Shown: positions 40,044-63,113 of the stretch, piece by piece
Layout: the number at the start of each line of letters is the position of its first letter
Position numbering within the stretch: position 1 is the stretch's first letter
Source: Methanococcoides orientis
GTDB taxonomy: Archaea > Halobacteriota > Methanosarcinia > Methanosarcinales > Methanosarcinaceae
Reading direction: 5' to 3'
Assembly: GCF_021184045.1 (NCBI RefSeq)
Contig: NZ_CP073710.1
Span: forward strand, 1,312,685-1,376,684
Length of the DNA stretch: 64,000 bases
Program-made: the position numbers and the translations under genes
The notes under the pieces: generated by a model
Database searches by the model: none
The model's input: the letters and a program-made list of their open reading frames with translations, nothing else
Told to the model about the DNA's origin: nothing

Positions 40044-41111
40044 TTAAGACTCGTTTTCCTCGAAGTACCTTCTCACAAGCAGCACAAGACTTGAACCAAG
40101 CAGTACCAGCAGGAAGATCGCAATAACCATACCTTCGAGAGTAAAGTCCTGCCACGAATGCACCGAGACCCACATCCCACTGCGGGTAACGAATGTTGCG
40201 AATATGACCAGTATGAAAGATGCAACTGCGAGCATCGGAGCAAGGAACCTGTATTCCCCGTGCTTGACCCTTGTCTGAGAATGCAGATAAGCAGTCGCTG
40301 TTATCCAGGGAATCAGTGACGATGTCTCAACAGGGTCCCATGTCCAGTACCATGCACCCCATCCGAGGACCTCATATGCCCAGAAACCGCCAAGTCCAAT
40401 ACCTGCTGTAAGGAAAAGCCATGCCAGACGCATCCAGTCACGTGATATCTTTACCCATTTCTCATCGTCGATGAGCAACGTAGCAAGAGCAGCGGCAAAT
40501 GGAATGGTGAAAGCTGCATAGCCAAGGAACAACACAGGAGGATGGACTGCCATCCATGGATTTCTCAGAAGCGGGTTCATACCCTGCCCGTCCACAAGCG
40601 GGTATGCTGAGACAAATGGGTTCCAGTTGGAAATGTCAACGTATGCACCTACGCCCCCATAATACATGGAGAACGGATTCTTCAATACCAGCAACATCAG
40701 GAAGACTGTAACGATGCACAGACATATTGCACGTGTGATGTTCATTAGCCTGGTGTCTGACAGCTCTTTTGTGTGGCCTGTATACTGCATTGCCAGAAGC
40801 ATCAGCAGGGTGAACCATGTCCAAAGCAGGAATGAACCTTCCTGGCCTGCCCACAATGCGGAAAGACGATAGACAAATTCAAGGTCGATACTTGAATGCA
40901 TGTAAACATAAACGTAGGATGCTGATACCGTTAGCAGATAGTAGGTAAGCATCAGGATAGCGAGTGTGATGGCGGATGCACATCCAATTTCAAGCTTTCT
41001 GGAAAGTGAACCGGCATGAGCACTATTTGTACGCAGGTGGATGACTGAATATATCGCCGAGCCGGCACCAAGAATAAAGGCAATCCATATGAGGATCATT
41101 CCAAAGTTCAT
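40044..41111 (-). CDS. CcmF-type cytochrome c assembly protein, N-terminal half (CcsA/CcmF family)
   Basis: This 355-aa polytopic membrane protein has about nine helices. The tryptophan-rich heme-handling loop WGAWYWTWDPVETSS with nearby conserved histidines (WMAVHPPVLFLGY; HSQTRVKHG) identifies the CcmF/CcsA heme-handling family. It corresponds to the first half of bacterial CcmF; the second half is the overlapping upstream gene (ATGA). Together they probably ligate heme to apocytochrome c outside the membrane, needed for multiheme cytochromes of Methanosarcinales. Confidence 0.85.
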   Translation of the reverse strand: MNFGMILIWIAFILGAGSAIYSVIHLRTNSAHAGSLSRKLEIGCASAITLAILMLTYYLLTVSASYVYVYMHSSIDLEFVYRLSALWAGQEGSFLLWTWFTLLMLLAMQYTGHTKELSDTRLMNITRAICLCIVTVFLMLLVLKNPFSMYYGGVGAYVDISNWNPFVSAYPLVDGQGMNPLLRNPWMAVHPPVLFLGYAAFTIPFAAALATLLIDDEKWVKISRDWMRLAWLFLTAGIGLGGFWAYEVLGWGAWYWTWDPVETSSLIPWITATAYLHSQTRVKHGEYRFLAPMLAVASFILVIFATFVTRSGMWVSVHSWQDFTLEGMVIAIFLLVLLGSSLVLLVRRYFEENES

Positions 41112-42094
41112 TTCTTACCCCCCTTAGGGCGTTCTGAACCCTTGTTTCTTTTTCCTTTTATCTTAGCCACAGAAGTTGTGGCCTTTCCATCAACTGAATA
41201 ATCGATAAGTCCAAGAACAGCTATGCCTGCGAGCATCAGGAAGAGGCCACCCCAGATGAATGTGATGAATGGCACGGTCCTCACATATATGCTGACCTCA
41301 CCACTGGTCTCGTTTACCGCTTTGGGGGCGATGAAAAGTTCCTCGAATACGCCACGATCCACATAGGTGCTTGTGTACGTCTGGCCCCATTTGAAATCAG
41401 TGATATATTTGATCTGTCCGCTATCAAAATAAGCGCCTTTTTTGTAAACATCGAAATCCACATAGGTTGCATAGGAAGAACCCGGATACTGCTTATACTG
41501 TGAGCCTTCGAAAGCGGAATCCATTCCGGTAACCGATATCATATAGTTCTGCCCTTCGAACTAGCCGGCAGAATCCATGGAAACCACAGCAGAACCATCT
41601 ACCTTCAAATTGCTGCTGGCAACGATCCCTATGAGTATCAGAATTATCCCAAGATGGATAACATGTGCACTGACACCTCGCAGTTTCATTGCACGTGAGT
41701 CACTCTGGAGAGACATATATATCTTATAAAATGTAGCGACCAGAGCCATGCTTACCACAGGCACGGCAACATCAAGAGGAAGGTTTCCGAAAGGAGATAG
41801 AAAAGCAAATGCTATGGAGATTGCAACTGTGAAACCACCAACGAACAAAGTTCTCTTCGCATCGAAATAACCATAAAGCAAGCCCATCGTAAGCAGTACT
41901 ACCAACGCTGCTGTGGGAAGAGCACTCCTGTTGTTAAAATATTCAGCACTCATGCCCATCTCGACGCCTGTGGTCAGCCTGACTATCAGTGGTGTTAACA
42001 TGCCCACAGTTATAAGAGCAGCAAGGAGCAGCATGGTCAATACCGCTGCCAGCATTATATTACTGCTGTTTACGAGGTCTTTGCTTTTTTTCAT
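41108..42094 (-). CDS. CcmF C-terminal-half protein with in-frame UAG (probable pyrrolysine)
   Basis: The frame runs from ATG 42094 to TGA 41108-41110, 328 residues if the UAG at 41561-41563 is decoded, which becomes residue 178. Upstream of it are four to five membrane helices and the CcmF-like segment VSAHVIHLGIILILIGIVASS. Downstream is a beta-rich exterior domain (FEGQNYMISVTGMDS...) and a final membrane helix plus a basic tail. Neither half is a complete protein, and no start with a ribosome site is seen just after the UAG. It overlaps the next gene by ATGA. If UAG is a true stop this is a pseudogene. Confidence 0.8.
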
Positions 42095-42242
42095 GAAATT
42101 CACAATCGTTACGTCTGTTCAAATATGTATCGGTACTGACATTAAAAAAACAGGATCAATAATGATAAAATCGTGATGATATTTTGATAGGGGGCTGATA
42201 GAATATTGATAACATGCTGATCTCTGAAAAAGAAATGTTGAA

Positions 42243-52196: not shown

Positions 52197-52638
52197 GATC
52201 TCTTCAACTTCAAATTATTCACAAATGTTTCAATTATTATTGTTTAATTATGCGGCTATCTCCAATCTTGCCACTTCAACGGATATAAAGTAGATCAATG
52301 CCCTTCTTTCTCAAAAGCTCGGCCTTGATATCTTCCAATAATTATATATTAAATCACACACATTTTTTTTAGCGGGGAAATGCAATTCGGGGTATTGCAG
52401 ATTTTCTGGATCAATACAGTATTGACGTTAATCTTTATGCTGAAATTCATACTGAGATCTATGCTGAAATATTGACGAATGGACATGATACAGAAATCGC
52501 AACCTATCAGAAAGGTAATGACCAGCACATTTGCTATTACCGGCCTATTGCACCCTGCAAGCAAACTGGACAAGCAGCTTCAATAAGGTACTAATTAAGA
52601 TCTGAATATTTCATAGATAACAATGGGAGTGAAGATAA
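52197..52638. other. 442-bp region upstream of the phasin-like gene, holding a duplicated leader
   Basis: No complete gene. From 52284 to about 52618 the sequence is clearly related to 59282-59594. It includes a conserved TATA-like TATATATTAAAT (52343-52354) and hairpin TGCAAT/ATTGCA (52381-52399). On the plus strand a long frame lacking a start runs from 52373 to 52592; it is frameshifted in the other copy. Confidence 0.6.
52284..52618 (+). repeat. Duplicated ~330-bp segment, copy 1
   Basis: Aligns with 59282-59594 over its whole length with scattered substitutions and short indels; the best block (TATATATTAAAT through the TGCAAT hairpin to ATTTTCTGGA) is close to identical. It ends about 20 bp before the start codon of the phasin-like gene. 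A second block, TATTGCACCC plus GCAAGCAAAC, is conserved near the 3' end. Confidence 0.8.
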
Positions 52639-55604: not shown

Positions 55605-56345
55605 TTAGCCATCCGCTTTTCCATAAGGGCACACGAGGTTGCAGATGGTGCATGATACAGAACCAAAATTGGAAATCTGTTGAAAGTGTTTTGCCCACTT
55701 ATCTTCGAGATCCTTGTCAAATTTATGCGCCACCACGCACCTATCGCGGATCACCTTCTCCCCGGGAGCTACTCCCTGAGAAGGACCTGGAATTATAGCC
55801 TGATATGGACAACTTTTGACACATATTGACCTTTCCTGACAGCGTGGTTGCTCTGCACAGAGATCATGAACATATGGCTCGTCCGGCTCGAGTTCTGCAT
55901 CGGTCAATACTGCTATCCATCGAACTCTTGGACCATACTCAGAAGTTATTACCTGAGTATTGTGTCCGATAAAACCTAATCCTGCAAGGTGTGCTGCTAC
56001 CTTTATGTGTACATCATGGCTTGGTGTGGCATTATAGCCCATATCTTTAAGCCAGGATACGAGCCTCCAGGCACGAGCTTCGGTTACTTCATAATAAAGG
56101 ATGTGACATTCAGCATTTTCAGCCGATGATGACCCAGCATTCTATATGGCAGCATTCATCCCGTTATCATTTATAGCCATACCCAGAACAAACAGAGATC
56201 TTGCATCCGACATGACCTCAGATGGTCGCATAAGTCCGCGCCCGGATGGAAATTCAACTTTTTCCAGCTTATTGATGTCTGAAACACCAAAGAGCTGGAA
56301 ACCCTCGGATAAAGCCTTTTTTGAAATCGATCCCTTGAGGTCCAT
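55605..56345 (-). CDS. 4Fe-4S protein, QueG/DUF1730-like, with in-frame UAG (probable pyrrolysine)
   Basis: The frame runs from ATG 56345 to TAA 55605-55607, 246 residues if UAG 56142-56144 is read, as residue 68. The first 67 residues (LFGVSDINKLEKVEFP, LFVLGMAIND) and the rest (HDVHIKVAAHLAGLGFIGHN; SEYGPRVRWIAVLTD) align with the organisation of the Fe-S protein at 62307. Cluster motifs are CQERSICVKSCP and CTICNLVCPYG. Without read-through the N-terminal and Fe-S parts would be separate. Function unknown; it is related to epoxyqueuosine reductase but lacks its C-terminal HEAT region. Confidence 0.8.
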
Positions 56346-59138: not shown

Positions 59139-59336
59139 TTATACATTTACACTAATCCTGTTACTCCATCCTTCCAATATCCCCCGGACATGAGTATTCA
59201 AATTAAGCGGATGATCACTTTTGGCATTCTGCTTCATATAATCTAACGTACCCTTAGAGAACCCCATATTCTTCCATTCAGTATAAAGCATGTCAATGAC
59301 CTTCTTCCTCAACAGATCCACCTTGAGGACGTCCAA
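59139..59336 (-). pseudogene. Gene relic, possibly the 3' end of a cas1
   Basis: The minus strand reads LLRKKVIDMLYTEWKNMGFS and continues GTLDYMKQNAKSDHPLNLNTHV...LEGW before a TAA. This recalls, from memory, the C-terminal tail of a group of archaeal Cas1 integrases (GFSKGTLHYMKQNA-type), but I cannot verify it. Upstream the frame runs into the duplicated segment and then a stop, so only the tail remains. In copy 1 the corresponding part (LLRKKGIDLLYIR) ends at a stop. No CRISPR array or other cas genes are seen. Confidence 0.4.
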
Positions 59337-59594
59337 TAAATATATATTAAATTGAACACATTTTTTTATTGGGGAAATGCAATTTGGGGTATTGCAGATT
59401 TTCTGGACCAATACAATATTGATGTTTTACTTATGCTGAAATATTGACGAAGATAAATGATTCAGAAGATCAGTATCTGGCAGAAAGGTTATGCCCATTT
59501 CATGTGCTATGCCCAACCTATTGCACCCCTGCAAGCAAACCGGACAAGTAGCTTCAATAAAGCATTGCGTGGAACATAAATATTTCATATGTGA
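59282..59594 (+). repeat. Duplicated ~330-bp segment, copy 2
   Basis: Partner of 52284-52618. The TATA-like TATATATTAAAT is at 59341-59352 and the TGCAAT/ATTGCA hairpin at 59378-59396, where the loop differs only in one base. It lacks about 25 bp present in copy 1 after ATATTGATGTT. It leads into the zinc-ribbon gene. Confidence 0.8.
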
Positions 59595-62306: not shown

Positions 62307-63113
62307 ATGGAAAAACAACAATTGAAAGAAGTCCTTCTGGAAAAATGCAGGGAAATGGAGATCCCGCTGGTCGGGGTGGCCAATGTTGAGCGCTGGGAAA
62401 AGCCCCTGTTCCATCCATGGATACCTGAAGAATTCCATCCTCAGTCCATCTACCCTGAAGCAAGATCTGCGATAGTCATAGGACTACCAGTGACACTCCC
62501 GGTGCTGGAGACATCTCCATCGATATACTACCGCGAGCTCTACAAGACAGTGAACAGCCTGCTGGACCAGTACACCTACCGACTGTCAAACTTCCTTACT
62601 GAGAAAGGCTATTCTTCTATCTTCGTTCCAAGGGATGGATACGGCTCTATCAAGGTACTTCTGGATAATCCCGTTGCTTTCTTTTCACACCGACATGCTG
62701 CAGTCCTTGCAGGTCTTGGAAACTTCGGAGTCAACAATACCATCCTGACTCCAGAATACGGCCCCAGGATACGATTCGGTACTATTTTCACCACTGCTGA
62801 ACTTGAACCGGACAACATCATGGAAAAGCAGCTATGCAACCATTGCATGCGTTGTGTCAGGATGTGTCCGTCAAATGCACTTGCGGAAAAGAACTATCCC
62901 GAAGGGATCACTGACAAGAAAGCATGTGCATCCTTTAGCGATGAGCTGAATAAACGAGAGATTTCACCTTGCGGGATATGTATAAAGGTCTGTCCGATCG
63001 GAGAGGATCGCAAAACCTACGGAAGGGAAAATGCTTCAATGTATAAAAAGAAGGATGAGTTCAAGAAGTATCACAATGCATGGGAACATGTACGTTCTTA
63101 TGGTGGAAAATAA
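62307..63113 (+). CDS. 4Fe-4S protein, QueG/DUF1730-like
   Basis: A 268-aa protein related to the N-terminal part of epoxyqueuosine reductase, with a double ferredoxin domain: CNHCMRCVRMCP and CGICIKVCPIG. The region HRHAAVLAGLGNFGVNNTIL corresponds to HIKVAAHLAGLGFIGHNTQV in the UAG-containing paralog at 55.6 kb. It lacks the C-terminal repeats of QueG. Electron-transfer function in corrinoid or other reductive activation is possible but unproven. Confidence 0.85.
   Translation: MEKQQLKEVLLEKCREMEIPLVGVANVERWEKPLFHPWIPEEFHPQSIYPEARSAIVIGLPVTLPVLETSPSIYYRELYKTVNSLLDQYTYRLSNFLTEKGYSSIFVPRDGYGSIKVLLDNPVAFFSHRHAAVLAGLGNFGVNNTILTPEYGPRIRFGTIFTTAELEPDNIMEKQLCNHCMRCVRMCPSNALAEKNYPEGITDKKACASFSDELNKREISPCGICIKVCPIGEDRKTYGRENASMYKKKDEFKKYHNAWEHVRSYGGK

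Follow-up and report, generated by a model that had tools for sequence, protein, structure and literature searches.

An in-frame UAG codon probably read as pyrrolysine in a divergent reductive-dehalogenase/QueG-like gene of Methanococcoides orientis

Introduction

Does an in-frame UAG in an iron-sulphur protein gene of Methanococcoides orientis end the protein, mark the gene as a decaying relic, or specify pyrrolysine (Pyl)? The question arises in a stretch of 64,000 nucleotides, here called the window (G000:C1:1312685-1376684), of the one-contig source genome G000, which has 2,494,162 bases. A first-pass annotation had reported the UAG in a QueG-like 4Fe-4S protein and had taken an intact paralog in the window as an internal comparison. 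It had also argued that two UAG cases within one window make pseudogene decay less likely than decoding. We have examined the frame, its relatives, the stop codons used in the genome and the constraint on both sides of the UAG.

Results

A single frame interrupted by UAG

The UAG is real: the plus-strand letters CTA are TAG on the minus strand, a strand that the first-pass annotation had not given. The minus frame reads M...AAI-UAG-NAG...GKADG-UAA, with 67 codons before the UAG and 178 after it, and no further stop or frameshift was seen inside it. Both sides of the UAG are homologous to one continuous protein in a single frame (Table 1). A sequencing error can be dismissed, because the independently assembled genome G002, from a second Methanococcoides species, has UAG at the same codon. 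Beyond the terminal UAA, a reading by eye (KPPGINPQKV) is still similar to the ortholog tail. An Rfam search of the window returned one tRNA only.

Table 1. Features of the UAG-containing locus, in window coordinates
Feature	Position	Strand	Remark
Whole frame of 246 codons, counting UAG as sense; divergent double 4Fe-4S protein of reductive-dehalogenase/QueG-like type	55605..56345	minus	
In-frame UAG, codon 68	56142..56144	minus	Ser/Ala/Asn in orthologs; common to G002
Portion upstream of UAG, codons 1-67	56145..56345	minus	dN/dS 0.08 vs G002
Portion downstream of UAG, codons 69-246 and UAA	55605..56141	minus	dN/dS 0.17 vs G002
UAA removing conserved C-terminal tail	55605..55607	minus	tail in orthologs: IIPxKRG
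Insertion site in G002, boundary of codons 5/6	56322..56330		element not in window
Distant paralog, intact	62307..63113	plus	27% identity

Relatives are continuous through the site

Relatives were sought among 111 genomes of the family Methanosarcinaceae. Twenty uninterrupted full-length relatives, 58-69% identical, were found in other genomes of the family; none of the 20 terminates at the UAG site, and Ser, Ala or Asn fills the UAG column in the 17 that were aligned. The G002 copy, 96% identical to that of G000, carries the same UAG, so that the codon is present in 2 of 22 full-length copies and is not conserved at an active-site position across orthologs. Beside the UAG, two residues are missing from the UAG-bearing copies in the ortholog alignment.

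The paralog proposed as an internal comparison is a true homologue (E 5e-19) but a weak control. It was rejected for this purpose, being too distant (27% identity) and gapped beside residue 68, and is therefore uninformative on the residue expected there. Conserved neighbour genes were sought around the intact orthologs and none was shared, thus giving no hint on function.

UAG is hardly used as a stop

The genes for tRNA-Pyl (CUA), pylS, pylB, pylC and pylD form one cluster, and the four Pyl proteins all score over their curated cut-offs. The two outcomes that had been named in advance as speaking against decoding, namely orthologs ending at the UAG and a missing Pyl system, were therefore both negative.

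Stop codons were counted in evenly spaced stretches totalling 464 kb of G000, on gene-like ORFs that had 80 aa or more and passed a score threshold of 0.05. The 358 ORFs ended in TAA (165), TGA (190) and TAG (3). By the same method, TAG ended 1 of 145 gene-like ORFs in G037, 2 of 101 in G061 and 15 of 129 in G004, which belongs to another genus of the same family. The three TAG-ended ORFs of G000 are pylB, a repeat protein that continues in kind past its TAG, and a CcmF-like UAG case in the window, which likewise continues into similar sequence. The pylB match (L060:9128-10420, minus, directly before pylC) runs to the end of the PylB profile, for which reason its TAG is taken as a genuine stop, the only convincing one in the 464-kb sample. 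A genuine TAG stop has likewise been reported for pylB of M. acetivorans (PMC2933860), and feedback on Pyl supply is a possible role for it. Given that TAG stops are near-absent, a UAG in any translated message is likely to be read through, and the best explanation is that this Methanococcoides genome in effect assigns UAG to pyrrolysine as a sense codon. A PYLIS-like mRNA element is not required, according to a review (PMC8211752).

The CcmF C-terminal-like gene (window 41108-42103, minus) keeps its UAG at the same place in seven Methanococcoides genomes and has His there in two others, in an alignment from which the G058 row was left out. As evidence for UAG decoding, this case outranks the codon-68 gene. 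In G002, a UvrD-type helicase/nuclease of 1018 aa (L092:2163-5219) carries a UAG at a position held by Gln in eight relatives and by Glu in one. The earlier argument from two UAG cases in one window thus came to the right outcome, although the stop count in the genome sample and the orthologs were needed to carry it.

As separate observations, two PAS/histidine-kinase genes of G002 (L092:12636-14588 and L100:6010-8319) have an in-frame UAG with domains intact on both sides, and an in-frame TAG lies in a DUF3987-like ORF of the genome that holds the window (L048:10371-11696).

The encoded protein

Profile searches matched PceA, a second tetrachloroethene dehalogenase and QueG, and Foldseek with a structure model matched QueG and PceA. 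The score is 75.6 bits for TIGR02486 (reductive dehalogenase) against a cut-off of 160.35, and 45.6 bits for TIGR00276 (QueG) against a cut-off of 200; the assignment is therefore made at superfamily level only. The earlier label of QueG-like holds as a statement about the superfamily, but the protein is slightly nearer to the reductive dehalogenases. The fold and the two 4Fe-4S cysteine sets place it in the QueG/RDH superfamily, in a model of low confidence after residue 160, and it would be expected to bind B12. All eight ortholog cysteines are kept in G000, as are Y84 and R142, which align with the catalytic residues Tyr246 and Arg305 of PceA. The helix that bears Y84 is invariant among orthologs. 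While sharing with PceA and QueG the fold (by model and profile) and the double 4Fe-4S motif, and with PceA the conserved Tyr and Arg positions, this protein and its relatives are shorter (246-260 aa) and fall below both cut-offs, and the QueG catalytic Asp was not identified in them.

The residue aligned with PceA Tyr246 follows the UAG by 16 residues; the UAG lies in a corrinoid-type fold and is common to two species. These features would suit a Pyl side chain with a role at or close to the active site, like that in the methylamine methyltransferases. We regard such a role as highly improbable, given that 20 full-length relatives do without the UAG, with Ser, Ala or Asn where aligned, that the site falls in a variable loop of low model confidence, and that the copies with UAG have an eroded motif around it. 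The model, whose confidence is low around residue 68, is too poor to place Pyl. A more specific version, in which Pyl beside a corrinoid active site was recruited on loss of the adjoining conserved loop and now supports a Pyl-dependent reductive-dehalogenase-like reaction, is more doubtful still.

Both sides of the UAG are constrained

Constraint was tested on one species pair, G000 and G002, over codons 6-246. The two differ at 22 positions in 723 nt, 19 of them transitions, with no indels. Upstream of the UAG there are seven synonymous and two non-synonymous differences. Downstream there are eight and five, a pattern of selection on the far side that, with 13 differences, has modest power. 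The dN/dS ratios of the two parts are given in Table 1; in intact neighbour genes of the same pair, dN/dS is 0.05-0.21 and dS 0.09-0.33. In neutral simulations with a transition bias of 13, P was 0.005 for the upstream part, 0.017 for the downstream part and 0.00024 for both combined. At the local dS of 0.10-0.12, about 72-87 differences would be expected under neutrality. Since the UAG is common to both species, it most simply predates their split, and the far part would then have been selected as protein with the UAG already present.

Alternatively, the UAG might terminate translation and the locus make two polypeptides, one a peptide of 67 residues and the other a C-terminal Fe-S fragment begun at an internal start such as M102, where an ORF of 145 aa with constrained codons begins at an ATG. 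A Shine-Dalgarno sequence was sought before M102 and none was found, and a start there would omit the invariant Y84 helix. Codons 69-101, which such a fragment would leave out, are conserved too, with 3 changes in 99 nt, and the upstream half is likewise constrained. With all orthologs made as a single chain, in a genome where TAG is hardly a stop, we consider two separate products extremely unlikely.

Signs of erosion

The gene is missing from 5 of 11 genomes of the genus. In G063 only a disrupted remnant is left, a clear pseudogene whose N-terminal half has given way to one end of a TnpB-type element (so named from its sequence) and whose remainder is frame-shifted by a short duplicated stretch, about 21 bp long. 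In G002 a transposon-like insertion of 2.96 kb, bounded by inverted ends of 23 nt and accompanied by a 9-nt target duplication, separates codons 5 and 6; it happens to bring, at its inner end, GAGG and an in-frame ATG. G000 itself differs at 29 of 131 columns that are invariant in the orthologs, and the differences cluster at residues 57-82, around the UAG, and at 221-231. No Shine-Dalgarno sequence is visible before ATG1 in G000, while the orthologs have one; some 30 nt upstream of ATG1 lies a TTTATAAT box that could serve a leaderless message. The relatives thus show a gene that can be dispensed with and that sometimes decays.

Among repeats and mobile elements, the transposon-like unit with 23-nt inverted ends (L035:7391-10347) encodes a NosD-like repeat protein along with a second protein of 336 aa, and carries repeats like TTGACCACAAAGT near its ends; no transposase was recognised in it by eye. 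Window positions 52331-52586 and 59280-59560 resemble copies of a dispersed repeat, in that each matches the G002 counterpart of the other at 75-80% identity.

These signs of erosion give some weight to a relic, decaying and essentially unexpressed, in which several changes, the UAG among them, have accumulated; on translation the UAG would still give Pyl, but nothing would depend on it. The outright pseudogene in G063, the interrupted 5' end in G002 and, in G000, the tail lost to UAA, the missing Shine-Dalgarno sequence and the eroded conserved loop all fit such a history. The 22 differences between G000 and G002, far below the neutral number, mostly silent and free of indels (combined P about 2e-4), argue against it. 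Neither frame-breaking indels nor a dN/dS near 1 is found over codons 6-246 of this pair, whereas the G063 copy is a pseudogene by that standard. We therefore hold the relic to be rather unlikely, if the most serious of the alternatives. The first-pass annotation was right that decay is less likely than decoding, but decay is not a remote prospect here, in view of the G063 pseudogene, the G002 insertion and the loss of the tail and of any visible Shine-Dalgarno sequence in G000.

Discussion

Decoding of the UAG is likelier than termination because the Pyl system is present, TAG stops are rare, the orthologs are continuous and the far side is constrained. The account that we favour, and consider probable, is that UAG 68 is decoded as pyrrolysine and arose by near-neutral drift, as in Thg1. 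Position 68, Ser or Ala in most relatives, would have held an ordinary codon that drifted to UAG before the sister species split, and tRNA-Pyl (CUA), charged by PylRS, would read it to give the full 246-residue protein. Residue 68 is predicted to lie in a loop that is not conserved and that immediately precedes the helix with the predicted active-site Y84; Pyl there would most likely be tolerated and not used. We infer that the mRNA is made and translated, that the inserted residue is Pyl and that Pyl has no role. Translation of UAG 68 is likely, the importance of the protein to the cell is uncertain, and it is unlikely that Pyl performs chemistry in this protein.

In Thg1, the tRNA-His guanylyltransferase of Methanosarcina acetivorans, Pyl has been physically observed and is non-essential (Heinemann et al. 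2009, reviewed in PMC2933860). Both are non-methyltransferase genes of Pyl-decoding methanogens with an in-frame UAG that is missing from orthologs, and an origin by neutral drift fits. In Thg1, however, Pyl was seen in the protein, whereas here it is predicted from the DNA sequence, in an accessory gene that is eroding in relatives.

Like the genes for the methylamine methyltransferases MtmB, MtbB and MttB, the present gene carries its UAG in the setting of a corrinoid-linked enzyme, in an organism of similar kind. In those enzymes Pyl is conserved and belongs to the active site, whereas the UAG is not conserved here. Their fold, moreover, is different from that of this protein.

Some archaea reportedly use TAG genome-wide as pyrrolysine, as described in 2025. 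The present genome resembles them in that TAG stops are almost absent from the 464-kb sample and UAG occurs inside ordinary genes; it differs in that our count, a reading of nucleotide sequence, covers part of the genome.

Annotation by the standard code would wrongly split such UAG-containing genes. The result from the genome sample, in which TAG is barely a stop and UAG lies within the conserved CcmF-like gene and, in the genus, a helicase, outweighs what the codon-68 gene can say alone. Taken together, our results add an archaeal case in which UAG probably serves as an ordinary, drifting sense codon outside the methylamine methyltransferases.
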